A stretch of 34,724 nucleotides of DNA from Victivallaceae bacterium (GTDB taxonomy: Bacteria > Verrucomicrobiota > Lentisphaeria > Victivallales > Victivallaceae), in assembly GCA_024405675.1 (NCBI GenBank), contig JAKSOH010000007.1, forward strand, positions 1-34,724. Reading direction: 5' to 3'. How positions within the stretch are numbered: the first letter of the stretch is position 1; each line of letters opens with the position of its first letter. The notes beneath the pieces are model-generated. The model did no database searches. It had not been told where the DNA came from and worked only from the letters and a program-made list of their open reading frames with translations. Positions 5,712 to 20,862 of the stretch are shown here, in pieces. A program made the position numbers and the translations under genes.

Positions 5712-6260
5712 CTATTCGGCCAGAAATCTGTCCACCAGTTCCCTGAATCCGTCGACCACCGGGAATCCGGCTTCCACGGCCTTCGGGGATTCCTTTTCCC
5801 CGTACCCGGTGCGGACCATTACCGATTCCATGCATCCCGCATTTCTGCCGCAGAGGAGATCATCGAATTTGTCCCCGCACATCGTCGACTTCGATATGTC
5901 TATGTCCAGCTCCCTGGCCGCCTGCAGTATCAGTCCCGGTTTTGGTTTGCGGCAGTCGCAGTCCAGGTCGAACGACGGATGATGCGGGCAGATGTAGAAC
6001 GCGTCGATCCTTTCTCCGTTTGTCTCGAGAAGCATTTTTTGTATCTTGTCGTGTATGCGCTCTACGTCTTCCATCGTGAACATTCCCCTGGCGATGCCGG
6101 ACTGGTTTGTTATCACCACGGCCAGATGACCTGCTTCATGAATCCTTTTGATGCCGTCGGCGACGCCTTTTTCCAGTTCCGCCAGCGCGGCGTCCTTCAA
6201 ATAGGCTATTTGCTTAATGACCACTCCGTCCCGGTCCAGGAAAAGCGCCCGTCTGCTCAT
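5712..6260 (-). CDS. gmhB: D-glycero-D-manno-heptose-1,7-bisphosphate 7-phosphatase
   Basis: GmhB removes the C7 phosphate from heptose 1,7-bisphosphate on the way to ADP-heptose for the LPS inner core. The 182-residue length fits the family. HAD motif I is FLDRDGV (nucleophile D9, acid/base D11), motif II region ITNQSGIARG, then a zinc loop with C91-x-H93 and C101-x-C103 before RKPKPG, and motif IV around GD130-KFDD. The start overlaps the ispE stop as ATGA (6257-6260), so it is the last gene of a coupled three-gene operon. The matching heptose kinase (hldA) is in the 24-34 kb operon, so the ADP-heptose pathway is split between two loci. Confidence 0.95.
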   Translation of the reverse strand: MSRRALFLDRDGVVIKQIAYLKDAALAELEKGVADGIKRIHEAGHLAVVITNQSGIARGMFTMEDVERIHDKIQKMLLETNGERIDAFYICPHHPSFDLDCDCRKPKPGLILQAARELDIDISKSTMCGDKFDDLLCGRNAGCMESVMVRTGYGEKESPKAVEAGFPVVDGFRELVDRFLAE

Positions 6261-7126
6261 CTTTGTCCTCCAAGTACGTAAAATGGGATGTCCGGCATCT
6301 CCGTTGCCATCGATTTTGCGAGTTCCTTCGCCTGTTCATGGTCGCGCGTCAGCGCCAGCATCGAGCTTCCACTGCCGCTTATCATGGCGCGTAGCGCCCC
6401 ATGTTTCTCAACCGTCTCTCGCAGGACCCAGTAGATCGGACACTTTTCCTCGATCGCTGGGGCCAGGTCGTTTTCCATGAGTCCCGCCAGTGTTTCCATG
6501 TCTCCGGCGTCCAGCGCCGAGATGATTTTCTCCGTTGTTCCGGCGGGGGAGGGGGCTATGAGTTTCGGATCCACATGCTGGTAGGCCCATTTCGCCGTTA
6601 TCGGGAATCCCGGCGCCGCCAGCACCAGCGGCACGTCGTGTCTGCCGCGGTATTCCAGTTCTTCGCCACGGCCTGCCGCGACAGCCGTTCCTTCACAGAG
6701 GAAGAACGGCACGTCCGAGCCGATTTCCGCCGCGATGCCCAGGAGCGTCGTTTCGTCGAACACCTTGTAATGTTCGTTCAGCGCCCGGAGCACCCGGCCC
6801 GAGTTCGCGCTGCCGCCACCGACTCCGCCCGCCACAGGAAGGCGTTTCTCTATACGTATCGATATAGCCGGCTTGATATCGGCCGCTTCGAAGAAACGTT
6901 CGGCCGCCTTGCCCGCCAGGTTGGCGGTTCCGGAGGGAAGTCCGGGGAAATCCGACTCTACTTCGATCCCCGGCCTGGCGGCGAACGATATCGAGATCGT
7001 GTCGGCCGGGGAGTGGAACGGCAGGAACACCGTCCTGATGTCATGGAAACCATCCGGCCGGCGTCGTTCCACCTTCAAATAGAGGTTGACCTTGCCGCCG
7101 CAGGGTATGGAAATCTTGTCCGTCAC
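6257..7126 (-). CDS. ispE: 4-diphosphocytidyl-2-C-methyl-D-erythritol kinase
   Basis: IspE phosphorylates CDP-methylerythritol in the non-mevalonate isoprenoid pathway. The 289-residue product has the GHMP-kinase layout: a substrate-binding start with GGKVNLYL and RRPDGFHDI, the glycine-rich ATP loop PVAGGVGGGSANSG at about residues 95-108, and a C-terminal MISGSGSSMLAL motif. The active-site lysine near the N-terminus (K in GGKVN) is present. Its start overlaps the upstream oxidoreductase stop and its stop overlaps gmhB, both by ATGA, giving a strict three-gene operon. Isoprenoid and envelope genes are plausibly co-expressed because undecaprenyl carriers serve LPS and peptidoglycan synthesis. 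Confidence 0.95.
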   Translation of the reverse strand: MTDKISIPCGGKVNLYLKVERRRPDGFHDIRTVFLPFHSPADTISISFAARPGIEVESDFPGLPSGTANLAGKAAERFFEAADIKPAISIRIEKRLPVAGGVGGGSANSGRVLRALNEHYKVFDETTLLGIAAEIGSDVPFFLCEGTAVAAGRGEELEYRGRHDVPLVLAAPGFPITAKWAYQHVDPKLIAPSPAGTTEKIISALDAGDMETLAGLMENDLAPAIEEKCPIYWVLRETVEKHGALRAMISGSGSSMLALTRDHEQAKELAKSMATEMPDIPFYVLGGQR

Positions 7127-8127
7127 TGCAATAGGAACTTCGTGCAGTCTATGTTGCGGTTCTTGCAGTAGATCCTCGCCTCTTTCTCGATGGCCACGGC
7201 GAGTTCCAGCGCCTTGAATCCGTCTTCTCCGGTGACTTTCGCCGGCGCGACCTTGCCGGTGGCCTTGGTCTCACTGACCGCGCGGAGGAAGTCGTCGAGC
7301 TCGTCCGCAAGGGCGTTGCGTTTTTCCAGGGCAATGTCGTTGCCGGTCATTTCGTTGATTTTGCAGGTTTCCACCGATACCATCGCCTTCACGCAGTCGA
7401 GATGGTATATGTTCGAGTCGGTGTAGATCTTGAGCGTGCGCTCTGGATGCCGGCTGATCCTGCTCGCGGAGATGTCCGCCGTTCCGCCGTTGGCGAAATG
7501 CAGCCGCACCGAGGCCACGTCCTCCGACTGGCTGAGCACCGGGGCTCCTATGACATCCATCTTGACGACCTCCGACTTCATCAGCGAGAGCACCAGGTCG
7601 AGGTCGTGGATCATCAGGTCCAGTATCACACTGACCTCGGTGCCGCGACGCGGCATCCCTTGCCGTGGCGGCGGATAGGGGGCCAGTCGCTTCGCCTCTA
7701 CATGGAGGATGCGTTCGTTTTTTATCGATTTCTCGACATATGTCATCGCCGGATTGAAACGCTCCACGTGTCCTACCGCCAGCACGACGTTGGACTTCTT
7801 CGCCGCTTCCAGCATCTTCTTCGCCCCGTCCAAATCGGACGCCAGGGGTTTTTCCGAAAGAATGTGCTTGCCCATCTCGAGCAGCGGTATCGTGGTCGAC
7901 GCATGGTACGTGGCCGGCACGGCCACGCTCAGTGCCTCGCATTTCTCCGCCAGCTCCTTCCACGTGTCGAAGACCGGGATTCCGAACTCCGCGCCGACTT
8001 TATCCGCGTTGTCCTTCTGGACGTCGAAAACCCCGACGACCTCGGCCGCCTCCGACTCCTTGTACAGCCTCGCGTGATGCCTGCCCAGCGCCCCGACCCC
8101 AATGATTCCGACCTTGATCTTGTCCAT
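7123..8127 (-). CDS. Gfo/Idh/MocA oxidoreductase, similar to UDP-GlcNAc 3-dehydrogenase (GnnA)
   Basis: A 334-residue NAD-dependent sugar dehydrogenase. It has an N-terminal Rossmann motif VGIIGVGALGRHHARLY, the EKP signature (HILSEKPLA) with its catalytic Lys, GHVERFNPA, and the IHDLDLVLSL block. The order GHVERFNPA, RLAPYPPPR, DLMIHDLDLVL resembles GnnA-type proteins, which make a 3-keto sugar used for amide-linked acyl chains in lipid A; no gnnB aminotransferase is visible here, so the substrate remains inference. ATG at 8127 is chosen over an upstream frame extension because AGGAGGT lies just before it and the Rossmann motif starts right after. It heads the operon with ispE and gmhB. Confidence 0.85.
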   Translation of the reverse strand: MDKIKVGIIGVGALGRHHARLYKESEAAEVVGVFDVQKDNADKVGAEFGIPVFDTWKELAEKCEALSVAVPATYHASTTIPLLEMGKHILSEKPLASDLDGAKKMLEAAKKSNVVLAVGHVERFNPAMTYVEKSIKNERILHVEAKRLAPYPPPRQGMPRRGTEVSVILDLMIHDLDLVLSLMKSEVVKMDVIGAPVLSQSEDVASVRLHFANGGTADISASRISRHPERTLKIYTDSNIYHLDCVKAMVSVETCKINEMTGNDIALEKRNALADELDDFLRAVSETKATGKVAPAKVTGEDGFKALELAVAIEKEARIYCKNRNIDCTKFLLQ

Positions 8128-8193
8128 CGCGGACCTCCTAGGTTTCCAACGTTGATTATTTTCGCATAATATACTTTTTTTGCCGTGCGCTGG

Positions 8194-8290
8194 CAAACTT
8201 GAAGACGGCGTTTGGCATAGGTGTATCATTGCTGAACTTGAGACCAAACACAAGCAGTGGAACCGCTGAAATGTCTGATGAACTCGATTG
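8194..8290 (+). repeat. Degenerate duplicate of the malic enzyme promoter, leader and start
   Basis: This segment aligns with 9233-9329. Shared blocks in the same order are CAAACTTGAA, a GTTTxGCA / TGCTxAAC inverted repeat with a 12-nt loop (8210-8217 and 8230-8237), AAACACAAGCAG, and TGAAATGTCxGATGAACTCGA. The distance from CAAACTT to the ATG is 77 bp here against 78 bp in the intact copy. Here the -10 is TGTATC instead of TATATT and the AGGAAGGA ribosome-binding site is lost, so the copy appears non-functional. Only about the first seven codons stay similar. Confidence 0.8.
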
Positions 8291-8320
8291 CACGTCGATC
8301 GCGATGTCCGTGACACGGAA

Positions 8321-8356
8321 AACGGGTCTCCGGATGTTCGTGTCCGGAGACCCGTT
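8321..8356 (-). terminator. Hairpin terminator for the lipoprotein gene
   Basis: A perfect 14-bp stem, AACGGGTCTCCGGA (8321-8334) and TCCGGAGACCCGTT (8343-8356), with an 8-nt loop. Read on the minus strand it is followed by TTTTCC and lies 65 bp past the lipoprotein stop, fitting a rho-independent terminator with a short U-run. Confidence 0.7.
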
Positions 8357-8421
8357 TGCCCCTTGCGGGGATGCGCAGGCCGTGCGGTTCTTCGACGGCA
8401 TGCCCTAGGAAAGCGGAATGA

Positions 8422-8868
8422 CTACTTTGTCAGTCCGTTCAGCTTCGCGCCGGTGCCGGAAACGGTGCAGCTGATTTTCTTGAAGACGAAGTAGTCCTCG
8501 GTGTCGACGCGATACTTGGCGCCGAGAACATAGTCGACCTTCCCGGATTCGCAGGCCTTGTAGGTCGCTCCGCGCTTCGCGGCGGTCACGCCGTCGACAA
8601 TCTTGAAGAGCGGGAACCCCGAGGAGGAATTGGTCTCGACGAACGCGTTGTCGGCGAACTCGTTGACTCCCCAGGTGATGATGCCGAACAGGCAGTTTGC
8701 CTTGGCGCTTCCGGATACGTCGCCGACGAGGCTGTAGTCCGGCTTGAAGACCATTTCCTCGATCTTGACCGGAGCTTCCTTGGCGACGTCGTTGGTGTTG
8801 ACGGAGGTGCAACCGGCCATGATGACGACTGCCGCGGCCGCGGCGATGATGGTGAGAATACGATTCAT
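8422..8868 (-). CDS. Small lipoprotein, weakly TRL-like
   Basis: A 148-residue lipoprotein of unknown function. The signal peptide is alanine-rich and ends in lipobox VIMAGC, with acylated Cys at about residue 19. The start at 8868 is set by AAAGGAG just upstream; a longer frame to 8967 lacks one. The mature part includes CLFGIITWGVNEFADNAF, which vaguely recalls the TRL-like small lipoprotein family (CxxxLGLxxxGDASIE-type block); this similarity is weak and should not be taken as identification. The gene is transcribed alone, ends at the 8321-8356 hairpin, and is divergent from the malic enzyme gene. Confidence 0.8.
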   Translation of the reverse strand: MNRILTIIAAAAAVVIMAGCTSVNTNDVAKEAPVKIEEMVFKPDYSLVGDVSGSAKANCLFGIITWGVNEFADNAFVETNSSSGFPLFKIVDGVTAAKRGATYKACESGKVDYVLGAKYRVDTEDYFVFKKISCTVSGTGAKLNGLTK

Positions 8869-9237
8869 TTTTTCACTCCTTTGTTTGTTTCGATACGGTT
8901 TGTTGTTGTTTCCAGTCGCGCTATCCGGCGTGTCGCAACAATATGGATTGCTGTCTGCCGTCGACATCCGCCGTGTCTGGTTCCGGAACGGAATCCGGCC
9001 ACCGCACTAGATGCGATAGTTCCCAATCTGCCTCCTTTCGTGAGAACATTCCCATAAAATAAATTATGTTTTTCATGGGAAACCGGTGTTTGCTTTTATC
9101 CGCACGCCAGACTTGTGATATCCGACTGTTTCTTTCTCCATAAAGGACTACTACTTGCAATTCAAGTCAAGCGGATTTATGTGTTTTTATGCATTTTTAT
9201 GAAAAATATTAATCGAATTTCCCATATTTTGTCAAAC

Positions 9238-9266
9238 TTGAATATGTTGTTTAGCATTGGTATATT
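9238..9266 (+). promoter_or_regulatory. Promoter of the malic enzyme-luxS operon
   Basis: TTGAAT (9238-9243), a 17-bp spacer and TATATT (9261-9266) form a good sigma-70-like promoter 45 bp before the start codon. The predicted transcript starts near 9273. Confidence 0.65.
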
Positions 9267-9276
9267 ATTGCTAAAC
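9249..9276 (+). promoter_or_regulatory. Inverted repeat spanning the malic enzyme promoter (candidate operator)
   Basis: GTTTAGCA (9249-9256) and TGCTAAAC (9269-9276) are perfect 8-bp arms flanking the -10 box with a 12-nt centre. The position over spacer, -10 and start site suits a repressor site. In the decayed copy at 8210-8237 both arms changed once, each to a G-T pair. Confidence 0.5.
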
Positions 9277-9310
9277 ACAGAACTAAACACAAGCAGGAAG
9301 GATAATTGAA

Positions 9311-10654
<1,344 letters not shown>

Positions 10655-10667
10655 GAAAGGATTTTTC

Positions 10668-11234
10668 ATGAAGAAGAACCTTGGAAAGCAGAGCGCCCTC
10701 TGCCCGATGCCGGTGCTCATCGTCGCCACCTGGAACGAGGACGGCACACCCGATGCCATGAACGCCGCCTGGGGTGGCATCCACGACACCGACCAGATCG
10801 GCGTCTGCATCGCGCCTGAGCATCGCACCGCCGCCAATCTGCTCCGCACGGAATCGTTCACCGTTTCCATCGGAACCGCCGATACCATGGTCTCTTGCGA
10901 CTACGTCGGCATCGTCTCCGGCAACAAGGTCCCCGACAAGGTGGCCATGGCCGGCTGGCATGTCGACCCGTCGTCCTTCGTCGACGCTCCGGTGATCCGC
11001 GAGCTCCCGCTCGTTCTCGAATGCAGGCTCGTCAGCTATGACAGGGAGACGGGCTGCGCCGTAGGCGATATCGTCAACGTCGCCGCCGACGAGTCGGTCC
11101 TGGGACCGGACGGCAAAGTCGACGTCGATCTCCTCGGCGCGATTTCCTTCGACCCGTTCCGCAACCGCTACATCAAGATCGGCGGTGTCGCCGGGACCGC
11201 GTTCTCCGTCGGAACCGCGCTGTTGAAGAAGTAG
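10668..11234 (+). CDS. Flavin reductase/flavoredoxin-like FMN-binding protein
   Basis: A 188-residue protein of the flavin reductase-like split-barrel family. It opens with MKKNLGKQSALCPMPVLIVA and continues with DAMNAAWGGIHDTDQIG, APEHRTAANLL and an SFTVSIG segment. This is the FMN-binding pattern of flavoredoxins (P-V-x-I-V and T-x-x-N block). Such proteins transfer electrons via bound FMN, often in anaerobes. The ATG at 10668 follows TAGGAAAGGA, where TAG is the malic enzyme stop, so it is the second gene of the operon. luxS starts 2 bp after its stop. The physiological partner is unknown. Confidence 0.88.
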   Translation: MKKNLGKQSALCPMPVLIVATWNEDGTPDAMNAAWGGIHDTDQIGVCIAPEHRTAANLLRTESFTVSIGTADTMVSCDYVGIVSGNKVPDKVAMAGWHVDPSSFVDAPVIRELPLVLECRLVSYDRETGCAVGDIVNVAADESVLGPDGKVDVDLLGAISFDPFRNRYIKIGGVAGTAFSVGTALLKK

Positions 11235-11236
11235 CC

Positions 11237-11728
11237 ATGGAATCCAGGAGCTCGATCTCATTCGACGTCGACCATCTCCGGATGACGCGGGGCATCTACA
11301 TCCCCGCGGTCGACCGCATTGAATCGGTCGTCGTCACCACTTTTGACATCCGCGTCCGGCGTCCATACGCCGAACCCGTGATGACGGAGGGCGAGGCGCA
11401 TACCGTCGAGCACATGCTGGCCACCGGACTCCGCTCGCAAAAGTCGGATCGCCTGATCGTGCTTTACTTCGGCCCGATGGGCTGCATGACCGGATTCTAC
11501 CTTTTGTTGGCGGGCGAGGCGAGCAACTCGGAGAAGGCCGATTTCATCGCCGCCGGCGCCGAGGCGGCGCTGGCGATGGAGGAGGTTCCGGCGAGAAACG
11601 CGAGGCAGTGCGGCAACTACGGTTCGCTGCTGGACGTGCAGGCTGTCAGACCGATTCTCGAGGAGATACGGGACATGGCCCGTTCGATTTCCGGGCGCGG
11701 CGCCTTCGACGCCTATCCCAGCAAATAG
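11237..11728 (+). CDS. luxS: S-ribosylhomocysteine lyase
   Basis: LuxS cleaves S-ribosylhomocysteine to homocysteine and DPD, the precursor of autoinducer-2, in the activated methyl cycle. The 163-residue length is normal. Metal ligands H55 and H59 sit in AHTVEHMLAT, C125 in RQCGNYG, and the catalytic C83 in GPMGCMTGFYLLL, all at the family positions. The gene starts 2 bp after the flavin-reductase-like gene and its last 16 bp overlap the convergent hydrolase gene. No pfs nucleosidase is seen in the window. Confidence 0.97.
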   Translation: MESRSSISFDVDHLRMTRGIYIPAVDRIESVVVTTFDIRVRRPYAEPVMTEGEAHTVEHMLATGLRSQKSDRLIVLYFGPMGCMTGFYLLLAGEASNSEKADFIAAGAEAALAMEEVPARNARQCGNYGSLLDVQAVRPILEEIRDMARSISGRGAFDAYPSK

Positions 11729-12675
11729 CGTTCGACCGCCTGCGCGGTCAGGAGATTCGAGCACATTCCGTGGTGTCCAACTGGAAGCATCTCCCTGACC
11801 ACGCACTGCGCGTTGTCCACTCTCAGGCTGTTTTTCGGCACCTTGAGGTCGAATGCTCCTCCAATGATGGTGATTTCTCCCTTGTAGTGGGCCGGCGGTC
11901 CTATGTATCGTCCAACCCCGTCCGGAGCCATGCGCAGATCCGAGATGGCGCGGTCGAACGCGTCCGCTCCCAGCATGGTCAGCAGATCCGCCCAGGGCGA
12001 TCCTCCGTTCGGCGGGGCGAGGAGTATCACCTTTCCGATTCTGGAGCTGATGAGATCCTTCGTGTCCTGTTCCAGCGCGACGCGCAGCAGCAGTCCGCCC
12101 ATGCTGTGGGTGACGAAGTGGATATTCTGCTTCAGCTTGCAGAACCGCTGCGCCGCCTTTAACAGCAGTTCCCTGCCGTGCGCTGATACTCCGGCCGTCG
12201 AGCTCATGTAGTCGTACACCAGGACGTCGTAGCCGCACGAGGATAGATGGGTCGCCATCTTGTGCATGCTGACCGCCCGGTTCACCCAGCCGTGCACTAG
12301 CACCACCGTCTCGTTCCTGCGGTTGTTCGTGGCGAGATAGGTGTAAAAGCTCTTGTAGACGGTGTCCGGAACCGTCATGATGTTGACGAACCAGTTCACC
12401 GGCCGATGCAGTATCCTGCGGAATACCAGTTCATCCGGACCGCACGACTGGCGGATTCCGGAGGGATCGACTATGCGCAGATGGTGGCCGCATCCGAATC
12501 TCTGGATGCGCCATCCGGAATTCACTGCTATGTCATGCCACGTCGTCGCCTGCCGGTGGTCCACCGCGGACTCGGCGTTGCAGTTGCATTGGCTGTCGAG
12601 TACCGCCTTCAGTGTTCCGTTGGTGACCAGGCGGTTGAACTCTGCCAGGGCGTCCCGCTTCAAAATCGTATCCAT
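11713..12675 (-). CDS. Alpha/beta hydrolase (lipase-like)
   Basis: A 320-residue predicted serine esterase or lipase. The oxyanion region is VVLVHGWVNRAVSMHKMA, the nucleophile elbow is FVTHSMGGLLLRVAL (G/T-H-S-M-G), and VILLAPPNGGSPWADLL follows, as in triacylglycerol-lipase-like hydrolases. A His is available near the C-terminus (VGHHGMCSN). About the first 110 residues are not part of the fold and are unrecognised; there is no signal peptide, so it is probably cytosolic. The ATG at 12675 follows AAGGAG. Its upstream region contains the same operator and -10 arrangement found in front of the triad operon, so it is predicted to share WYL control. It converges on luxS with a 16-bp overlap. 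Confidence 0.88.
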   Translation of the reverse strand: MDTILKRDALAEFNRLVTNGTLKAVLDSQCNCNAESAVDHRQATTWHDIAVNSGWRIQRFGCGHHLRIVDPSGIRQSCGPDELVFRRILHRPVNWFVNIMTVPDTVYKSFYTYLATNNRRNETVVLVHGWVNRAVSMHKMATHLSSCGYDVLVYDYMSSTAGVSAHGRELLLKAAQRFCKLKQNIHFVTHSMGGLLLRVALEQDTKDLISSRIGKVILLAPPNGGSPWADLLTMLGADAFDRAISDLRMAPDGVGRYIGPPAHYKGEITIIGGAFDLKVPKNSLRVDNAQCVVREMLPVGHHGMCSNLLTAQAVERYLLG

Positions 12676-12702: not shown

Positions 12703-12736
12703 AACATATCATGCGTCCGGTGACATTTTGTGTCAC
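12703..12736 (-). promoter_or_regulatory. WYL-type operator plus -10 box of the hydrolase gene
   Basis: GTGACATTTTGTGTCAC (12720-12736) has perfect GTGACA/TGTCAC arms. Read on the minus strand it is TGACACAAAATGTCAC, followed after 11 nt by TATGTT (12703-12708), about 28 bp before the hydrolase ATG. The same operator and the same 27-nt operator-to-hexamer distance occur three times at 15742-15956. Protein binding is inferred. Confidence 0.65.
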
Positions 12737-13336: not shown

Positions 13337-13525
13337 ATGAAGAAGATTATGATGATGCTTGGTGCTGCCCTCGTCGTTTCCACCCTCGCCGGATGCGGAT
13401 CTCTCCGTACCCCGGGCGAAGGCAAGAATGCTGACAAGGTCTACTATTGCACCTTCTTCGGTCTCTCCATCGAGAGCGCTGTCTACGGTGACGGATTCAT
13501 CGTTTCCCCGATCTCCAACAAGTAA
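13337..13525 (+). CDS. Mini-lipoprotein, array copy 2
   Basis: A 62-residue paralogue of copy 1. Signal peptide MKKIMMMLGAALVV, lipobox TLAGC, then GSLRTPGEGKNADKVYYCTF and the shared FFGLSIESAVYGDGFIV block. The C-terminus is longer (SPISNK). The YYC motif adds a second cysteine in the mature chain besides the acylated one. The gene starts 48 bp after copy 1 with AAAAGGAAAAG upstream. Confidence 0.85.
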   Translation: MKKIMMMLGAALVVSTLAGCGSLRTPGEGKNADKVYYCTFFGLSIESAVYGDGFIVSPISNK

Positions 13526-13570
13526 CGCTTTCTGATGGCATTACCCGATTTTGGGTACGAAAGGAAACAA

Positions 13571-13753
13571 ATGAAAAAGCTCATGCTTCTGCTCGGAGCG
13601 GCTCTTGTCATTTCTTCCGTTGCCGGTTGCAGGTCTCTGCGCACTCCGGCCGAAGGCAAGAATGCCAAGAAGGTCTACTATTGCACGTTCTTCGGCCTCT
13701 CCATCGAGAGCGCTGTCTATGGCGATGGCTTCATCGTCCAGAACGCCAAGTAG
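13571..13753 (+). CDS. Mini-lipoprotein, array copy 3
   Basis: A 60-residue paralogue. Signal peptide MKKLMLLLGAALVIS with lipobox SVAGC; CRSLRTPAEGKNAKK replaces the CGSLRTPGEGKN of the others. The same VYYCTFFGLSIESAVYGDGF block follows, ending VQNAK. ATG at 13571 follows AAAGGAAACAA. The array ends 25 bp later at a strong terminator. Synonymous differences between copies are many while the protein block is nearly fixed, which suggests selection on the peptide. Confidence 0.85.
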   Translation: MKKLMLLLGAALVISSVAGCRSLRTPAEGKNAKKVYYCTFFGLSIESAVYGDGFIVQNAK

Positions 13754-13844: not shown

Positions 13845-14672
13845 TCAGCAGGGGAAGGGGAGCGCGTCCTTCAAGTGGATGCATCTGCGGTACCTTCCGT
13901 CCGGACCTACCGCTCCGAACAATGTTCCGCACGTGCATGAGAAATCCTTGACCCCATACCTTGCGCGCATTGCGCGTGGCATGTCGCGGCATTCGCATAC
14001 GAGTTCGTCGCAGAAATTCGGCTTCATTCGCCGCGGTAGCTTGAGTTTTTCCACTTCGCGACGTATTTCATTCCATTCACCGCGTTCCAGCGCGAGTTCC
14101 GGCGTGTTCGCCGCTCGTCCGCAAAGCATCGCCGGTTCCACCATCACCGCTCCGGCCCCGGCTTCGGCCGCGGCCAGCACGGTCTCTACGGCTTCGAACG
14201 CGTTCGTCCGGTTCCCCGTTATTCTTACAGACATCGCCCACTTCGATTTCGCGGCCTGTCTTATCGACTCCAGTATACGCTCCCGGCCGCGTCCCCTCCC
14301 GGTCATTGCACCATAGGTTGCGAGACAGGGCAAACTGGTCCCCACGATTACGCTTTTCCTTTTGAGAAAGGCGAAGCGCCTCGGTGTCATCAGCGTTCCG
14401 TTGGTGAAGAGCATCAAGCCTCCTGCGGGGAGCAATTCTCGCGCATACGACACCAGGGTTCCGATGTCCTTTCTCAGCAGAGGTTCCCCTCCCGAGAACT
14501 GGAGCACAAGCGCCCCCGCGTCGACGCAGTGGCGGATGATCTTCCTCCAGGCCGATGTCGGGAGATCCTCCGGGACCGTTTCACCTTCCTCGTGCCAGTT
14601 GCAGTAGCAGAACGGACACGCATGGTTGCAGCGCGCCGTCAGTTCCAGTATTATTTCCGGCGGGCAGGGCAT
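13845..14672 (-). CDS. Radical SAM enzyme with short SPASM-like C-terminus
   Basis: A 275-residue radical SAM protein. The [4Fe-4S] motif CNHACPFC (C-x3-C-x2-C) lies near residues 14-21, preceded by EIILELTAR, and the SAM-binding FSGGEPLLR motif lies at about residues 59-67. The C-terminus has CECRD, then CTCGTLFGAVGPDGRYRRC, resembling the SPASM auxiliary-cluster signature, and the protein stops a few residues after the last cysteine (LPFPC). It is shorter than typical 350-400 residue SPASM enzymes, so the auxiliary cluster site may be incomplete. Substrate unknown; many relatives modify peptides. Its start lies 22 bp inside the WYL regulator gene, indicating coupled expression. It converges on the three mini-lipoprotein genes. 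Confidence 0.88.
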   Translation of the reverse strand: MPCPPEIILELTARCNHACPFCYCNWHEEGETVPEDLPTSAWRKIIRHCVDAGALVLQFSGGEPLLRKDIGTLVSYARELLPAGGLMLFTNGTLMTPRRFAFLKRKSVIVGTSLPCLATYGAMTGRGRGRERILESIRQAAKSKWAMSVRITGNRTNAFEAVETVLAAAEAGAGAVMVEPAMLCGRAANTPELALERGEWNEIRREVEKLKLPRRMKPNFCDELVCECRDMPRAMRARYGVKDFSCTCGTLFGAVGPDGRYRRCIHLKDALPFPC

Positions 14673-15670
14673 TTGCGGATTTCGTTCGTCTTGGCCGCCT
14701 CGAGCGCTTCGTCATGGACGCGTCTGCGGATGTTTTCCGGCTCCAGCACCTCGACCTTGCCTCCTTCCGCCAGCACCCAGCGCACGATGTCGAACTCGGT
14801 CGACGGTCCAAGCGTCACGTCCAGGCTGCCGTCCTTGTTTTCCTTGATGGTGAGTTTCTTCTTGTATTGCTGCTCGCGGATGTAGAAGGCGATCTCCTTC
14901 GCGCATCTCACCTTGACGTTGGAGAGCTTTGGATAGTCGAAGAGACCGTTCTTCCTCGTGTCGTCCAGTATGTCCTTGCGAATGTCGAATCTGATTCCAT
15001 AGGTGTCGACCGACTTTATCCGGAAAATCGCTAGTATCAGCACCTTCTTGTCTGCTATGTTCACCCCCTTGACATACCAGTTCCCGTTGCGGCAGGCGAT
15101 GATGTGGGGTTCGAAACGCATCTCCTTCGGTTCCTCGTCGGCGTCATCCTTCCCATAGGTCAGCTTGAGCGGTTTGCGTTGGCGCCACCCCTCGAACACC
15201 GTGTGGAATATCTTGGGATCCACGTCGGTGTTCGCTCCCGAGAAGATGAGCAGCGACTCCATGTACGTCACGTCGAAGAAATTCGAGTTGTTTCCCGCCA
15301 GCTCGTTGTCGACCGCGTCGCGTATCGTGGTCTTTACCGGTTCCGGCATCACGTCTTCAGCTATGCGCGCGCCCAGCATGCTGCTGGCGATGTATCCGTC
15401 GCAGAACGTCGGCGCCTGGAACACCCAGAACGGATTGTCGAGATAGTAGCCGTTGTTCTCCTGGGAGAAGACTATCGGCGCCTGGAACTCGCTTTTCAAC
15501 GCCTCGATGTCTCTCTTAATCGTGCGCTCGCTGCACGCGATGTTGAGATTGTCTACCAGCTCCGCGCGCTTCAACAACTTGGCGAAACTCGCCGAGTTGG
15601 GGTAGTTGTTCTGGCGCATTTCCGCTACCAGCTTGATCATTCTCTGTATCTGTTTCTTGTTCACCGGCAT
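14651..15670 (-). CDS. WYL-domain transcriptional regulator
   Basis: A 339-residue regulator of the HTH-WYL-WCX type. Residues about 1-90 hold a DeoR-like winged helix (NIACSERTIKRDIEAL, then NNGYYLDN). A WYL-like domain sits around LKLTYG and FEPHIIACRNGNWYVKG, the last giving the family's W-Y-V/L core. The C-terminus (FDIVRWVLAEGGKVEVLEPE) fits the WCX domain. WYL regulators respond to nucleotide-type ligands and often control defence or stress loci such as BREX and CBASS. The ATG at 15670 follows GAAAGGG; an upstream frame extension to 15847 runs through the operator repeats and is rejected. It overlaps the radical SAM gene and is divergent from the TerY-P operon. A promoter with TTGTCA and TATCTT (15706-15734) abuts operator 1, suggesting autoregulation. 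Confidence 0.9.
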   Translation of the reverse strand: MPVNKKQIQRMIKLVAEMRQNNYPNSASFAKLLKRAELVDNLNIACSERTIKRDIEALKSEFQAPIVFSQENNGYYLDNPFWVFQAPTFCDGYIASSMLGARIAEDVMPEPVKTTIRDAVDNELAGNNSNFFDVTYMESLLIFSGANTDVDPKIFHTVFEGWRQRKPLKLTYGKDDADEEPKEMRFEPHIIACRNGNWYVKGVNIADKKVLILAIFRIKSVDTYGIRFDIRKDILDDTRKNGLFDYPKLSNVKVRCAKEIAFYIREQQYKKKLTIKENKDGSLDVTLGPSTEFDIVRWVLAEGGKVEVLEPENIRRRVHDEALEAAKTNEIRKCPARRK

Positions 15671-15734: not shown

Positions 15735-15774
15735 TTTGCAATGACGCAAAATGTCACTCCGCCGGAAATACATT
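15728..15774 (+). promoter_or_regulatory. WYL operator/promoter module, copy 1
   Basis: TGACGCAAAATGTCAC at 15742-15757, then 11 nt, then TACATT at 15769-15774. An extra GTGACA half-site lies at 15728-15733. No TTGACA-like -35 precedes TACATT; that position is inside the operator, which would fit activator-dependent transcription or direct occlusion. Confidence 0.65.
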
Positions 15775-15830: not shown

Positions 15831-15864
15831 GTGACGCAAGATGTCACTCCGATGAAATTACATT
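15831..15864 (+). promoter_or_regulatory. WYL operator/promoter module, copy 2
   Basis: GTGACGCAAGATGTCAC at 15831-15847 (GTGAC/GTCAC arms), then 11 nt and TACATT at 15859-15864. It lies 90 bp after copy 1 with identical internal spacing. Confidence 0.65.
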
Positions 15865-15923: not shown

Positions 15924-15956
15924 GGACACAAGATGGCACGGCATCCCTGGTACATT
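15924..15956 (+). promoter_or_regulatory. WYL operator/promoter module, copy 3 (degenerate)
   Basis: GGACACAAGATGGCAC at 15924-15939, 11 nt, then TACATT at 15951-15956, 92 bp after copy 2. Operator arms are weaker but spacing is unchanged. It is nearest to the first triad-operon gene, 65 bp before its ATG. Confidence 0.55.
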
Positions 15957-16020: not shown

Positions 16021-16494
16021 ATGACGGAAAAGGAGAAGAGGTTTTACAGATGGTCACTGTGGGGGCTCGTGGAGCAGGGCTGCCACGTGCAGACGATGAT
16101 CATGAGCAACATGTCGTTGTCCTTGCGCATCGTCCTGGAGGATGGCGCGGTCGCCGACATCGACAGGCATCGCTACCTCGAGCGGCTCGAGAGCGCGTGG
16201 AAGCTGGTGCAGCTCACTCACGAGGATGCCGTGGCGGCGGCCGACGAACTCGGACACGCCGAGATGATTCCGGAGCTCCCGGAAATCGACGTCGATATGT
16301 CGATGTGGGACGATGGAATCGATGGCGAGCAGAAGGTCACCAATGCCGTCGCGGACACCGCGATCAGGATCAACGAGGCGCTCTTCAAGCTGATGGACGT
16401 GCTCGATCCCGTGGAGAAGGAGTCCGAGAGCGAGGAAGATAAGGAACCGGTAGCCGGCGAAGAAACGGCCGCCGAAACGGAAACTGACAAATAG
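16021..16494 (+). CDS. Small acidic-tailed protein, first gene of the TerY-P operon
   Basis: A 157-residue protein I do not recognise. Residues 1-70 look like a compact alpha/beta domain (KRFYRWSLWGLVEQGCHVQT, then RIVLEDGAVADIDRHRYLER). The last about 35 residues are a Glu/Asp-rich disordered tail (KESESEEDKEPVAGEE). No signal peptide or membrane segment. ATG at 16021 follows a strong AAGGAGGAGG; the frame is open upstream to 15907 but that part overlaps operator 3. It opens a run of seven plus-strand genes ending with the kinase-VWA-phosphatase set, so a role in that system is inferred. Confidence 0.75.
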   Translation: MTEKEKRFYRWSLWGLVEQGCHVQTMIMSNMSLSLRIVLEDGAVADIDRHRYLERLESAWKLVQLTHEDAVAAADELGHAEMIPELPEIDVDMSMWDDGIDGEQKVTNAVADTAIRINEALFKLMDVLDPVEKESESEEDKEPVAGEETAAETETDK

Positions 16495-16505
16495 GAGGTA
16501 TGGAA

Positions 16506-16919
16506 ATGGGAGACATCGAAGACATCTTCAGGGGAATCGGAATCACAAAGCCTGGCATCGGAAGGCACGGCGGAGTGCCGGGCATCCTCGCCGGGCTCGC
16601 AGCTCTGGGAATCGGGGTCGGCGTCGGCGTCGCGGCAATCGCCGGAATTGCGAAGGCCGTCTCCAACGACGACGATGATGACGACGAGGACATCGAGGAC
16701 GATGATTACGAGGATGACGAAGAGGAGTCCGACGACGAGGATGAGGATGCGGAGGACGATGACGATTCCGACGATGACGATTCCGACGAGGAGGACGGGG
16801 ACCTGGCCGACCAGGTGCTAGACGATGCGGTCGATCGTACCATGAAGTCCTGCAAGGAAGTGGTGGAGCCCTTTGAGAAGCTCTTCAGCTTCGGACAGAA
16901 GTCCCGGACTTCGAGGTAG
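16506..16919 (+). CDS. Membrane-anchored Asp/Glu-rich protein
   Basis: A 137-residue protein, family not recognised. A glycine/alanine-rich hydrophobic segment (about residues 25-47, LAGLAALGIGVGVGVAAIAG) predicts a membrane anchor. It is followed by about 50 residues that are almost only Asp and Glu with some Ser, then DQVLDDAVDRTMKSCKEVVE and a basic end. Such a tract could bind Ca2+ or other cations or a basic partner; the kinase encoded downstream has a lysine-rich N-terminus. The ATG at 16506 is preferred to that at 16500 because AGGAGG at 16493-16498 is 7 bp away. It starts 11 bp after the previous stop. Confidence 0.75.
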   Translation: MGDIEDIFRGIGITKPGIGRHGGVPGILAGLAALGIGVGVGVAAIAGIAKAVSNDDDDDDEDIEDDDYEDDEEESDDEDEDAEDDDDSDDDDSDEEDGDLADQVLDDAVDRTMKSCKEVVEPFEKLFSFGQKSRTSR

Positions 16920-16925
16920 ATGCCG

Positions 16926-17114
16926 ATGAATACGGAAAAGTCCGGCAATGTCTGTCCGAACTGCGGATATAGGAAGCCGGCCCGTCCGGTGTTTCCATTC
17001 CGTCCGTTGTCGGGCGTGATTGCGCCGCCATATTGGTTGGGAAAGGAATTGCTCGACAGGCTGTTTCGGGCGTTCTGCCCGCGTTGTGGAACCAAAATGA
17101 AGAAGGAGAAATGA
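16926..17114 (+). CDS. Small zinc-ribbon protein
   Basis: A 62-residue protein with two CxxC knuckles, CPNCGYRK near the N-terminus and CPRCGTKMKKEK at the C-terminus, separated by about 35 residues. This is a zinc ribbon fold by pattern. The middle part (PLSGVIAPPYWLGKELLDRL) is unrecognised. ATG at 16926 has GAGG 9 bp upstream; ATG at 16920, directly after the previous stop, is the alternative. Zinc ribbons are often found in or beside TerY-P kinases, so it may be a separated accessory domain; that is inference. Confidence 0.65.
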   Translation: MNTEKSGNVCPNCGYRKPARPVFPFRPLSGVIAPPYWLGKELLDRLFRAFCPRCGTKMKKEK

Positions 17115-17116
17115 TT

Positions 17117-17665
17117 ATGAGCGATTTTTCTGATTTGATATCTGAAATCGGAGATGCGACGAGCGAGCTCGTCGAGAACATCGGCCAGGCCTGGCGCGAT
17201 CTTGTCGAGGACATTGATTCCATCGGTCGCGCGAGGTTCGTCCGCGGCGGCGGAGTCTGTCGCTGCAAGGCCGGCGGCAAGAAACGCTACGCCATCGTGG
17301 CCACCGAGGGTTCGGTCATCGCCATCAACAAGGAGGGCATCGCCGAGATTATGGACATGACCGACTTCATGAAGATGTATGGCGCCGACTCCATCAAGGT
17401 CGCCGGCACCGACGACATGGGGCTTGGCGACCGCCACGTCCTGAAGAAGGCCTTCATGCTTACCGATGGTAAGACCTACCGCAGCACCCGCGAGTTCGTT
17501 CTCGAGTGTCTCGGCGCCGAGCCGAATCTCAGGGTCGACCAGGCCTTGCACGACATGTTTGAAGATTTCGACTGGCTGAAGTTCAGCCCCGTCGAGGATG
17601 ACGACGAGGATCTCGGTAAGGACGAGGAGGAGGACTCCGAGTCCAAGACCGAAGATGGCGAGTAA
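17117..17665 (+). CDS. Acidic-tailed protein of unknown function in the TerY-P operon
   Basis: A 182-residue protein, not recognised. It starts with an amphipathic helix (SDLISEIGDATSELVENIGQ), then RFVRGGGVCRCKAGGKKRYA and IVATEGSVIAINKEGI, which reads like a small beta-rich domain with a C-x-C pair. The final about 25 residues are an Asp/Glu tail (VEDDDEDLGKDEEEDSE), the third acidic tail in this operon. ATG at 17117 lies 8 bp after GGAG (17105-17108). The last 11 bp overlap the kinase gene, so the two products are probably made together. Confidence 0.7.
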   Translation: MSDFSDLISEIGDATSELVENIGQAWRDLVEDIDSIGRARFVRGGGVCRCKAGGKKRYAIVATEGSVIAINKEGIAEIMDMTDFMKMYGADSIKVAGTDDMGLGDRHVLKKAFMLTDGKTYRSTREFVLECLGAEPNLRVDQALHDMFEDFDWLKFSPVEDDDEDLGKDEEEDSESKTEDGE

Positions 17666-18794
17666 CCCGCGTCCGAATTGGTTCGTCAGATGGTTCGGCT
17701 CCCCGTCCGCGGGTAGTCCGAAATCACCTGCGCCGAAGAAGAAAAAGAAAGAGAAGGGAACTCAAGTGGGAATGGATTGGCAGCGCCAGGGCGCGGGAAT
17801 CGATCGGACGATCACCGTCTACGATCCCCACGGCAAGCCGCTCAAGTTGACTGCGAATGACCGGCTGACTGACGGCGGCGAGGGCGTCATATATAACTGC
17901 CCGCTCAATCGGAGCATACTCATCAAGATATGCAAGCCGGAGGTGATGGGTAACGCGCCCGCCATGAACCGGTTCCGCAGCCGGCTTCAGGCGATGCTGG
18001 GGCTTGCGGAGTGCACCAATTCGCCGTTTCTCGCCTGGCCCCGGATGAAGGTCCTGGACAAGCCGAACGGCCAGCCGATAGGATTTGTCATGAACAAATT
18101 CTCCGGTCGGAAGCTCCGGGCGTTGTTCTGTGCCGATCAGGTGACCAAGTTCTTCCCCGGATGGGACCGGCTGTCCGTGGCCCGTGTGGCGCTTAACCTC
18201 GTCGACGCCATCCGCATGCTGGCCAGGTATCACGTGCTGGTGAACGATTTCAATCCGGACAACTTCATGGTCACTCCGAGTGGCGAAATCGGATTGATTG
18301 ACTGCGACAGCTACCAGATCCCCGCCGGCGGTTGGGTGCGCAAGGCGTTTCTGACCTCGCTGCATTTTCCCGATTACGCCGCTCCGGAACTTCTCAAGGA
18401 CAAGAAGCTCCTGGATCAACCTCGTACTCCGGAACAGGTGAGGTTCAGTCTGGCGGTGCTGGTCTACTCGCTGGTGATGTGCGGACTGCATCCGTACGCA
18501 AGGCTGGGAAGTAGCAAGGAGCAGTGGCAGAATCTTATCGAAGGAAAGTTCCCGCTCGATCCCAGATCCGGCGCGAGGATGGCGCCGTACTGGGAGACCG
18601 TTGCCAGCTGGATGCCGGACAGTCTTGTGGATTATTTCGTCCGCATGTTCGGTCCCGGACATTCCGATCCAGCCGTTCGTCCAAGCGTTACGGAGTTGCA
18701 TTCGGAACTTGAGAATTTCATCGCCGTCATGGAGCGCAGTCGCATCGCCGACCAGCGCGCTCTCAAGCCGTCGAAGAAAAAAAGAAAAAGATAA
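17655..18794 (+). CDS. Atypical Ser/Thr protein kinase of the TerY-P triad (YegI-like)
   Basis: A 379-residue kinase. The glycine-rich loop is GGEGVIYNC (residues 73-81) with the lysine in ILIKICKP (K91). The catalytic loop is VNDFNPDNFMV (D198, N203), and metal-binding IDCDSYQI is at 215-222. The exchange of HRD for V-N-D and of DFG for D-C-D-S is characteristic of kinases linked to TerY and PP2C genes. An N-terminal extension holds proline-rich sequence and a Lys run (KKKKKEK, residues 28-34); the C-terminus is also basic (KKKRKR). No membrane segment is visible. The start is chosen for coupling to the upstream gene (11-bp overlap); ATG at 17772 is an alternative that would remove the extension. 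Confidence 0.87.
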   Translation: MASNPRPNWFVRWFGSPSAGSPKSPAPKKKKKEKGTQVGMDWQRQGAGIDRTITVYDPHGKPLKLTANDRLTDGGEGVIYNCPLNRSILIKICKPEVMGNAPAMNRFRSRLQAMLGLAECTNSPFLAWPRMKVLDKPNGQPIGFVMNKFSGRKLRALFCADQVTKFFPGWDRLSVARVALNLVDAIRMLARYHVLVNDFNPDNFMVTPSGEIGLIDCDSYQIPAGGWVRKAFLTSLHFPDYAAPELLKDKKLLDQPRTPEQVRFSLAVLVYSLVMCGLHPYARLGSSKEQWQNLIEGKFPLDPRSGARMAPYWETVASWMPDSLVDYFVRMFGPGHSDPAVRPSVTELHSELENFIAVMERSRIADQRALKPSKKKRKR

Positions 18795-18853
18795 ATTGGT
18801 TTTAACGATACAATGGAAGAATCCAAGACAACCCAAAAGGAAAGGAAGAGAAA

Positions 18854-19543
18854 ATGAGTGATTATGCCAATGAAAACCTTGATGTGACGAATCCGGCGCC
18901 GCGGTGCCCGGTGGTGCTGCTGCTGGACGTTTCCGGCAGCATGGGAGGCCGGCCGATTCGCGAGCTCGAGGAGGGCGTCAAGCAGTTCCTGGACGAGACC
19001 AGCAATGACGAAACCGCGAGCGTGAGCGTCGAAGTCGAGATCATCACCTTCGCCAACGACGCCGAGGTGGCGGTTCCGTTCTGCCCGGTGACCCAGGCCG
19101 CGGCCAATCCTCCGACCTTCACCGCCAGCGGCTGCACTTCGCTTGGCGCCGCCATCGCCCTCGCGGATGACGAGTTGCGCAATCGCCGCAACATGTACAA
19201 GAAGAACGGCATCTCCAGCTACCGTCCGTGGATCGTCCTGATGACCGACGGCGGTCCGAATGACGAGTGGAAGGAACCGGCCGCCAGCATGAAGTCAGTG
19301 GCCGAGACCGGAAAGCTCCAATACATCGGCATCGGAATCGGCGATGATGCCGACTTCACAACGCTGGCCGAGATCGTTCCCGAGCATCCCGGACCGGTCA
19401 AGCTGAAGGGGCTCCGCTTCAAGGAGTTCTTCCGCTGGCTGACCGATTCTCTGCGCAGTGTCTCCGCCGGCAGCGTCGCCGATCAGGACAAGGCGCAACT
19501 CGGTACCGTCGACAGCTGGGCCGATCTTTCCGGAACTCCGTAG
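18854..19543 (+). CDS. TerY-like von Willebrand factor A protein
   Basis: A 229-residue cytosolic VWA protein. The metal-ion-dependent adhesion site is complete: LLLDVSGSMGG (D25-x-S27-x-S29), the Thr in GCTSLGAAI, and the Asp in LMTDGGPND. The GRPIRELEEGVKQF and GIGDDADFTTLAEI regions match TerY/YegL proteins. In TerY-P triads the VWA protein is thought to act as a metal-sensing scaffold for the kinase and phosphatase. The start follows AAAGGAAGAG, 59 bp after the kinase stop. The stop TAG is directly followed by the ATG of the PP2C gene. Confidence 0.93.
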   Translation: MSDYANENLDVTNPAPRCPVVLLLDVSGSMGGRPIRELEEGVKQFLDETSNDETASVSVEVEIITFANDAEVAVPFCPVTQAAANPPTFTASGCTSLGAAIALADDELRNRRNMYKKNGISSYRPWIVLMTDGGPNDEWKEPAASMKSVAETGKLQYIGIGIGDDADFTTLAEIVPEHPGPVKLKGLRFKEFFRWLTDSLRSVSAGSVADQDKAQLGTVDSWADLSGTP

Positions 19544-20773
19544 ATGAGAAAGCTCACTGGATTCGCCGCGTCGGTGCCCGGAAACGGGCACCTGCAACGC
19601 GAGATACCTTGCCAGGACGCTTCCGGCGTCTGGCTCTCCCCGCGTCCTGTCGCCATCGTCTGCGACGGGCGGGGCAGCGCGAAGCTGTCACACTTCGGTG
19701 CACGGGCCGCGGTGAAGGCGTTTCGCAGCCAGTGCGCAGTCCTCGAGGACCTGCTTGGCATACTGGACGAACCGGAGGTCGCGGAAGGGGAGTGGGAGTG
19801 CATCTGCCAGTTGCTGGTAAAAAGCATGTGCCAGCAAAAGCTGGAACTTGCCGAGGAGTACGGATGCGGCGAACGCGAGTTCGACTATACCGTTGCGTTC
19901 TGCGTCTGGGGCCGGCGCCATGTCGGTTTCTTCCAGGTCGGTGACGGGGCGATTACCCGCCGTTCTCCAGAAGGCGAGTTCTCAACGGTGTTTCCGCCGG
20001 ACAAGGGCGAGTTCGACAACATCACGACTTTCCTCAGGCTGGACGCCACGGGACATTGCTGTCCGTTTCATGCGGTTACCATGCCGCGGGCCATGGTGAA
20101 TGCGGTGGCGATTACCAGCGACGGACCGGAATACCTGATGTTTCATCTGCCGTCGATGGTCCCCGGACCGATATTCGGGAAGCTATTTTCCGACATGGAT
20201 TCCGGGGAGCTGACGCGCCAGAACATCCTTGACTACCTGACAGCGGCGAAATGGGCCACCGATCCGCGCGGCCGCGATGACCGCAGCCTCGTGGTGATGG
20301 GATGGTCCGGCGAACCGGAACCTTGCGAGGAACCGGCCGCGGCGCCGGCGGCGGAGCCAGGCGCGGAATCTGCTGCAACGCCTGTTGCGGAACCTGCAGC
20401 GGAGACCGGCAAGGAACCCGAAAAGGAACCCGGGGTGACGCCTGGGCAAGTCGATGGAGCCGACGAGAAGTCCGGCGGGGAATCGGAGGAACAGTCCCCG
20501 CCTGTCACGAAACAGGAAGGACCTGTGAATGACGGGCCGGAGTCGGTCGAGCCATCGGCTAAAACTGACACCGATCCGAATCCGGAACCTGTCGATCCCG
20601 CGTCATCTCCGGCGCAGGATGCCGGCAATCAGCCGAATCCCGGCGCCGGCGATAGTGAGTCCATTATCCGGACCATCGGCGGGCAATGTGATGTGAAGAC
20701 GTTTATCGGCGACGCCAGGCAGATTTGCGTCATGGTGTTCTCTGTGATAAAGCGTAGCCTGTCGAAATTCTGA
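19544..20773 (+). CDS. PP2C-type Ser/Thr phosphatase of the TerY-P triad with long C-terminal tail
   Basis: A 409-residue protein. Residues about 1-255 are a PP2C-like catalytic domain: CQDASG (D25), VAIVCDGRGSAKLSHFGA (D41-G42), VGFFQVGDGAI, AITSDGPEY and the C-terminal RGRDDRSLVV metal site. It presumably reverses phosphorylation by the kinase two genes upstream. Residues about 256-380 form a disordered Pro/Ala/Glu-rich tail with repeated EP and AAE units. The last about 27 residues (DARQICVMVFSVIKRSLSKF) are hydrophobic with basic residues and could be an amphipathic membrane contact. The start is fused to the VWA stop with no gap. No obvious terminator separates it from the convergent helicase gene. 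Confidence 0.9.
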   Translation: MRKLTGFAASVPGNGHLQREIPCQDASGVWLSPRPVAIVCDGRGSAKLSHFGARAAVKAFRSQCAVLEDLLGILDEPEVAEGEWECICQLLVKSMCQQKLELAEEYGCGEREFDYTVAFCVWGRRHVGFFQVGDGAITRRSPEGEFSTVFPPDKGEFDNITTFLRLDATGHCCPFHAVTMPRAMVNAVAITSDGPEYLMFHLPSMVPGPIFGKLFSDMDSGELTRQNILDYLTAAKWATDPRGRDDRSLVVMGWSGEPEPCEEPAAAPAAEPGAESAATPVAEPAAETGKEPEKEPGVTPGQVDGADEKSGGESEEQSPPVTKQEGPVNDGPESVEPSAKTDTDPNPEPVDPASSPAQDAGNQPNPGAGDSESIIRTIGGQCDVKTFIGDARQICVMVFSVIKRSLSKF

Positions 20774-20862
20774 CACCATTTCAAAGTGTCCATCTCCACC
20801 GGTGTTCGTGTCGTTTACGGCGCGGACGCCGGTTCTTCTTTATATCTGGACAGGGGGTGCCG

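Follow-up and report, generated by a model that had tools for sequence, protein, structure and literature searches.

A probable WYL-activated variant of the TerY-P-like kinase/phosphatase/VWA systems in a Victivallaceae bacterium

A divergent operon in the Victivallaceae

The stretch of DNA analysed here, called the window, is the whole 34,724-nt contig JAKSOH010000007.1 of a Victivallaceae bacterium (phylum Verrucomicrobiota, assembly GCA_024405675.1), whose genome is 71% complete and comprises 1.64 Mb. Along the + strand it carries a gene for a WYL regulator in the opposite orientation, then four genes for small proteins designated A to D, three genes for a kinase, a VWA protein and a PP2C phosphatase, and finally a hairpin. 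Because the genes from A to PP2C are nearly contiguous or overlapping, they read as a single transcription unit; they form an operon divergent from the WYL gene. An earlier note made from the letters of the DNA had described these genes, and all of them were found where it placed them. The locus is probably a WYL-activated variant of the TerY-P-like kinase/phosphatase/VWA systems, serving a membrane-directed stress or anti-phage response. The features of the regulator gene and of the operon are as follows.

14651..15670, - strand: WYL-WCX transcription factor with an N-terminal helix-turn-helix (HTH) (Pfam, WYL 1.1e-8 and WCX 4.1e-14)
16021..16494, + strand: A, helical-bundle protein of 157 residues with an acidic tail (AlphaFold model, conservation)
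16500..16919, + strand: B, 139 residues, with a Gly/Ala-rich hydrophobic segment and an Asp/Glu tract (window only)
16920..17114, + strand: C, small zinc ribbon with two CPxC knuckles (zinc-ribbon Pfam matches below cut-off, alignments)
17117..17665, + strand: D, most likely an LRAT-fold pseudoenzyme, 182 residues, with an N-terminal helix and an acidic tail (HHalign, Foldseek)
17655..18794, + strand: Ser/Thr-type kinase of TerY-P kind (Pkinase 1.2e-5, catalytic residues, tree)
18854..19543, + strand: TerY-like VWA protein with an intact metal ion-dependent adhesion site (MIDAS) (Pfam VWA E=2e-12, residues)
19544..20773, + strand: PP2C phosphatase with a Pro/Glu-rich linker and a short C-terminal segment (Pfam PP2C_2 3e-30, metal-binding Asp)
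20798..20833, + strand: terminator-like hairpin of 16 pairs, closing the operon after PP2C

Occurrence was surveyed in 78 genomes of the family and in 388 sampled genomes of the phylum, with G044 as an additional genome. Loci are numbered L and genomes G, where G265 corresponds to L047, G396 to L167 and G291 and G235 to L169 and L170. The relatives retrieved with the window kinase are metagenome-assembled genomes of Victivallales and other Lentisphaeria, many of them from the guts of ruminants and other animals.

The kinase, VWA and PP2C triad

The TerY-P triad is said to unite a TerY VWA protein, a PP2C phosphatase and a Ser/Thr kinase, reportedly in the accounts of Anantharaman in 2012 and Gao in 2020 and in CoCoNuT-associated forms. 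The window holds adjacent genes for the same three proteins, and their active sites are intact. The kinase is divergent, its Pkinase match of E=1.2e-5 in the Pfam scan lying under the curated cut-off, and its Lys91, Asp198, Asn203 and Asp216 are unchanged across seven relatives. The VWA protein retains the MIDAS residues D25-S27-S29, T95 and D132. In the phosphatase the metal site is preserved (Asp41-Gly42, Asp193-Gly194, Asp245/246), and its Asp residues are invariant across relatives. The kinase stops shortly past its catalytic domain with a Lys-rich tail, and no zinc ribbon or OB domain fused to its C-terminus was seen in the Pfam scan. A search for TerD, the one Ter gene looked for, found none in seven genomes that carry A and D, namely the source genome and six relatives. 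The reading of these genes as a TerY-P-like triad standing apart from Ter genes, put forward in the earlier note, is supported by domains and sites and, as regards TerD, by these seven genomes.

In a tree of 82 kinase sequences, the window kinase falls in a fully supported clade of 11 Lentisphaerota members, basal to two sister groups of which one is associated with A and D and the other mostly with active-looking LRAT proteins. Long-kinase triads of the order VWA-PP2C-kinase, the arrangement of the Sphingomonas locus, are distant from it. The locus survey found triads to be widespread without A or D. Two kinase matches came from viral contigs, both of the VWA-PP2C-kinase type.

The small proteins and their co-occurrence

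A and D are present in three of the 78 family genomes, with the triad in all three, and they share exactly the same nine of the 388 phylum genomes; G044 brings the total to ten loci. Nine of the ten also have a WYL gene of this type, either divergent or not far off (some 5 kb away in G044); at L047, the exception, the 16.5 kb read showed no such gene, though WYL boxes are present there. The triad, or the start of a triad cut by a contig end, adjoins A and D at seven of the ten loci. In the window and five relatives, C stands as a small zinc-ribbon protein of its own; it was not detected in L056 or L167. In L169 and L170, C and D form one fused open reading frame, with C matches of 2.9e-8 and 2.7e-12 and D matches of 1.9e-50 and 8.4e-48; this fusion points to a joint role of C and D.

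The earlier note had singled out the four small proteins as an unusual, unrecognised set preceding the triad, and had made their failure to co-occur with it elsewhere the finding that would count against the idea. A, C and D do co-occur with the triad, so that part of the claim stands; B does not belong to the conserved set. The note's further proposal makes the small proteins putative substrates or sensors of the triad. B combines a hydrophobic stretch (maximum Kyte-Doolittle value of 2.34 over 19 residues) with a tract in which 18 of 20 residues are Asp or Glu. No relative of it occurs in the surveyed loci, and it is known only from the window. Other acidic proteins with a Gly-rich transmembrane segment are found at several loci with a WYL box (L047, L051, L052 and L170); these are analogous to B, which was rejected as a conserved component.

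A has remained unrecognised, as the note had said. Its AlphaFold model, at a predicted local distance difference test score (pLDDT) of 86.9, contains three long helices, and no significant fold match was found in the PDB. Neither A nor D matches a family in Pfam, NCBIfam or PADLOC. Compared with the relatives, the window versions of both have longer acidic tails.

Two side observations concern these neighbourhoods. Near the WYL-A-CD cassette of L170, positions 5751-11225 encode an 1824-residue repeat protein with C-terminal zinc ribbons. Glycine-zipper-like domains, small or C-terminal, recur near triads with two VWA genes (L036, L037) and near the triad-less cassette of L169.

Protein D and the LRAT fold

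For D, the description as unrecognised no longer holds. At the sister triad loci L046 and L051-L053, LRAT-family proteins of apparently active type are encoded directly after PP2C (PF04970 5.6e-6 in L051). Aligned to these over 116 columns, the D profile gave an HHalign probability of 81% and E=1.2e-5, and the reversed control 0.2%. Independently, a Foldseek comparison of the modelled D structure (AlphaFold, pLDDT 77.8) with the PDB ranks human HRASLS/PLAAT enzymes first, with a probability of 1.00 and a best E of only 3.7e-3. LRAT-like proteins are characterised by catalytic His, polar or His, and Cys positions (PMC3142127). In all ten D proteins these three are replaced by Tyr, Ser or Ala, and Thr or Ser, so that D has the LRAT/HRASLS fold and lacks the catalytic His-(His)-Cys set. 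Because the replacement extends to every D protein, D is most likely a diverged LRAT-fold (permuted NlpC/P60) protein without catalytic residues, a pseudoenzyme, as judged from profiles and models. Carriage of D by phages or plasmids was considered and rejected, as no instance was found, and none was seen in viral contigs.

The WYL regulator and its predicted promoter box

The regulator has the architecture HTH-WYL-WCX, its HTH_11 match lying under the curated cut-off of that family, and its orthologues in two A/D loci of the same genus are 51-55% identical to it. Upstream of A and of the alpha/beta hydrolase gene lie the following elements, the hydrolase being the second transcription unit of the proposed regulon.

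15742..15756, + strand: WYL box 1, TGACGCAAAATGTCA, with the -10 element TACATT at 15769-15774
15832..15846, + strand: WYL box 2, TGACGCAAGATGTCA, with TACATT at 15859-15864
15924..15938, + strand: WYL box 3, degenerate, GGACACAAGATGGCA, with TACATT at 15951-15956
12721..12735, - strand: WYL box TGACACAAAATGTCA, an exact match of TGACRNAARATGNCA 46 nt before the hydrolase ATG, then 12 nt and the -10 element TATGTT
11713..12675, - strand: alpha/beta hydrolase, lipase/esterase-like (Abhydrolase_1 E=2.8e-8)

The box is a 15-bp imperfect palindrome, TGACRNAARATGNCA, followed by 12 nt and a TAnnnT -10 element. Three near-repeats of it, spaced 90 and 92 nt, precede A; box 2 and its surroundings repeat the box 1 region directly over 47 nt (79% identity, 90 nt offset). 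TGACRNAARATGNCA or a close variant, with the same spacer and -10 element, also precedes A in those related loci that were read. Pattern searches of the 1.64-Mb genome returned three exact matches of TGACRNAARATGNCA, against 0.10 expected from base composition, none of them outside this locus: A is preceded by two, the hydrolase by one. A looser pattern gave about one off-locus match per genome across the genus. The TAnnnT element lies exactly 12 nt after the box at every locus site, whereas among the 29 off-locus matches read for the genus only 2 show this. Scoring also found sites in L047, L048, L051 and L056 that had not been used in deriving the pattern; those of L048, L051 and L056 precede YbjN-like genes, an operon for a septin-like GTPase-DUF697 protein (in L051) and an FGE-like gene. 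The triads with two VWA genes, which lack this WYL regulator, have no high-scoring box. At L047 (3560, + strand) a box, 12 nt and TATATT face no obvious gene, and an LRAT-like gene lies antisense downstream.

No good -35 element is visible at the box promoters, where the box overlaps the expected -35 position. A palindrome over -35, a fixed distance to -10 and a poor -35 make up an activator-type promoter, an arrangement that fits the WYL activators DriD, SiwR and PafBC. The sites of DriD extend over poor -35 elements, with constant spacing to -10 (PMC12340889), the SiwR palindrome lies between -35 and -10 (PMC10693628), and PafBC exerts its effect at -26 and is switched on by single-stranded DNA (ssDNA) (PMC11804915), as is DriD (PMC12340889). 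The sigma70-like promoter of the WYL gene itself (TTGTCA-17-TATCTT, 15734-15706, - strand) abuts box 1, and autoregulation through it is possible. Judged from these sequence patterns, the WYL protein would bind TGACRNAARATGNCA, and we propose that its regulon consists of the A-to-PP2C operon and the hydrolase. WYL control of the triad, suggested by the earlier note, is now backed by the common box.

Neighbouring genes

The hydrolase had been listed by the earlier note as a neighbour; it is present, and the box ties it to the operon beyond what was claimed. Its gene has a good ribosome-binding site, and the protein carries about 108 extra N-terminal residues, relatives of the family matching just residues ~109-318. 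The radical SAM enzyme and the PIF1 helicase, named alongside it, were rejected as partners: they have no real counterpart at the related loci, which hold merely two weak general radical SAM matches. The radical SAM and WYL genes overlap, and the two may share a transcript; in relatives the former is not conserved at that place.

Flanking PfkB proteins are 36-47% identical among genomes of the same genus, too diverged for an empty-site comparison. A tandem pair of small lipoprotein genes, almost identical to each other, occupies window positions 13337-13525 and 13535-13753 (+ strand). Elsewhere, related triads lie near Cas13b, Cas1, BrxL, PglZ, Cas10 and a TIR protein. At a single locus, L034 (4737-7718), a Cas13b-like protein stands beside Cas1, BREX genes and a triad.

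Proposed mechanism and alternatives

We propose a two-layer inducible response to phage or DNA-damage stress, in which transcription driven by the WYL protein would be followed by a kinase/phosphatase switch at the membrane; we hold the chances of this scheme to be evenly balanced. As a probable homodimeric activator of DriD/SiwR type, the WYL protein would sense a nucleic acid such as ssDNA, bind the boxes over the missing -35 elements and turn on the operon from A to PP2C together with the separate hydrolase. Kinase and phosphatase would determine how far a complex of the VWA scaffold with the adaptors A, C and D is phosphorylated, and D, through its dead LRAT fold, and B, as a membrane-anchored acidic protein, would direct this complex to the membrane. 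Membrane effectors would then act, the hydrolase here and, in a sister locus, the septin-like GTPase-DUF697 proteins under a box of the same kind. The likely purpose is protection from phage or DNA-damage stress; TerY-P has been reported to be active against T7-like phages (PMC7699616).

Several points weigh against this scheme. The box pattern was derived partly from these very sites, so the independent evidence is that of the hydrolase site and of the unused sites in L047, L048, L051 and L056. PADLOC has no good match for the VWA protein or PP2C, nor for A or D. The window flanks look housekeeping-like (malic enzyme, LuxS, KdsB and KdsA, names read from the sequences rather than from a family scan), and the defence genes near related triads are mostly on other branches of the triad tree. 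A repressor, too, could use boxes that overlap -35. L169 and L170 hold the WYL gene, the box, A and the C-D fusion but no triad, and a kinase-profile search of both whole genomes returned weak matches only and no clear triad-type kinase; since two genomes carry WYL-A-C-D without it, the triad is not obligatory.

The core might then be WYL-A-C-D alone, a separable sensor/adaptor cassette with the triad as one of several pluggable outputs, a reading that also draws on L167, where WYL, A and D are kept beside a kinase remnant followed by an IS256-like transposase (family read from the sequence), and on the abundance of triads without A or D. The triad or its cut start is nevertheless found at most A/D loci, and L169 and L170, coming from one family, may reflect derived loss; on balance we rather doubt this view. 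That WYL-A-C-D is an undescribed cassette with its own box, interchangeable outputs (triad, hydrolases, other operons) and a dead LRAT fold that serves as adaptor to membranes or acyl chains seems possible, if somewhat short of an even chance. Mere proximity of unrelated small open reading frames would agree with the restriction of B to the window and with the unlinked PIF1 and radical SAM genes; the exact co-occurrence of A and D, the conserved gene order, the C-D fusion and the common box make it extremely improbable, and for A, C and D it is already refuted.

The two remaining alternatives concern the regulator and the purpose. BrxR and CapW act as repressors, and the WYL protein could likewise keep an abortive-infection operon, potentially toxic, switched off until infection. 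The boxes overlap the -35 region, and the WYL promoter beside box 1 would permit autoregulation; repression would, however, require promoters without a recognisable -35 to work without an activator, the fixed 12 nt to -10 is expected of activators, and the boxes serve dispersed genes rather than one operon, which leaves a repressor unlikely. Alternatively, the triad and its satellites (DUF697/septin-like GTPase, YbjN-like and FGE-like proteins, hydrolase) would restore or reshape membranes following stress from metals, antibiotics or bile instead of acting against phages. Membrane-linked satellites (DUF697 GTPases, YbjN-like proteins, acidic transmembrane proteins) are indeed found behind the same box or next to the loci, the relatives of the host inhabit animal guts, the flanks are housekeeping genes, and TerY-P has historically been tied to metal stress (PMC11090510). 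The absence of TerD from the seven genomes tested speaks against such an envelope function, and the patchy presence of the locus (9/388) and its loss linked to an insertion sequence in L167 resemble an accessory defence island. WYL regulators, moreover, commonly control defence or DNA-damage genes. A general envelope-stress system is in our view rather unlikely, and we rank defence somewhat above it.

Relation to known systems and significance

With TerY-P the locus shares three adjacent genes of the same enzyme and scaffold types, intact sites and homologous kinases. It differs in gene order, kinase-VWA-PP2C instead of VWA-PP2C-kinase, and in its kinase: that of Sphingomonas panacis has a C4 zinc finger, whereas none was seen in the window kinase and zinc ribbon C is a separate protein. 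The window operon is also devoid of DNA-processing genes and adds WYL, A and the LRAT-like D. In the kinase tree, the nearest outgroup is formed by the triads of the kinase-VWA-PP2C loci with two VWA genes from Lentisphaeria and Kiritimatiellae (L055, L057-L063), which have an extra upstream VWA gene and no A, C, D, WYL or box. D has its fold in common with the LRAT/HRASLS (PLAAT) permuted NlpC/P60 proteins, from which it differs by the replaced catalytic residues.

The regulator resembles DriD, SiwR and PafBC in its HTH-WYL-WCX architecture, in a palindrome that overlaps -35 or follows it closely, with constant spacing to -10, and in a divergent target operon, but the box sequence is different and the predicted targets are a kinase/phosphatase operon and a hydrolase. 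According to two reports (PMC9122589, PMC9122588), BrxR and CapW are WYL proteins that regulate defence operons, and here as well the WYL gene adjoins a presumptive defence operon; activation is, however, likelier here, and BREX or CBASS genes are absent.

TerY-P-like triads are widespread, and this locus represents a compact, testable case for their switch and partners. It combines a predicted regulator with a promoter box, likewise predicted, whose gene set is defined, and with small conserved adaptors, including one with a dead lipid-enzyme fold. It suggests that WYL activators control kinase/phosphatase signalling, which would link nucleic-acid sensing to protein phosphorylation in bacteria.

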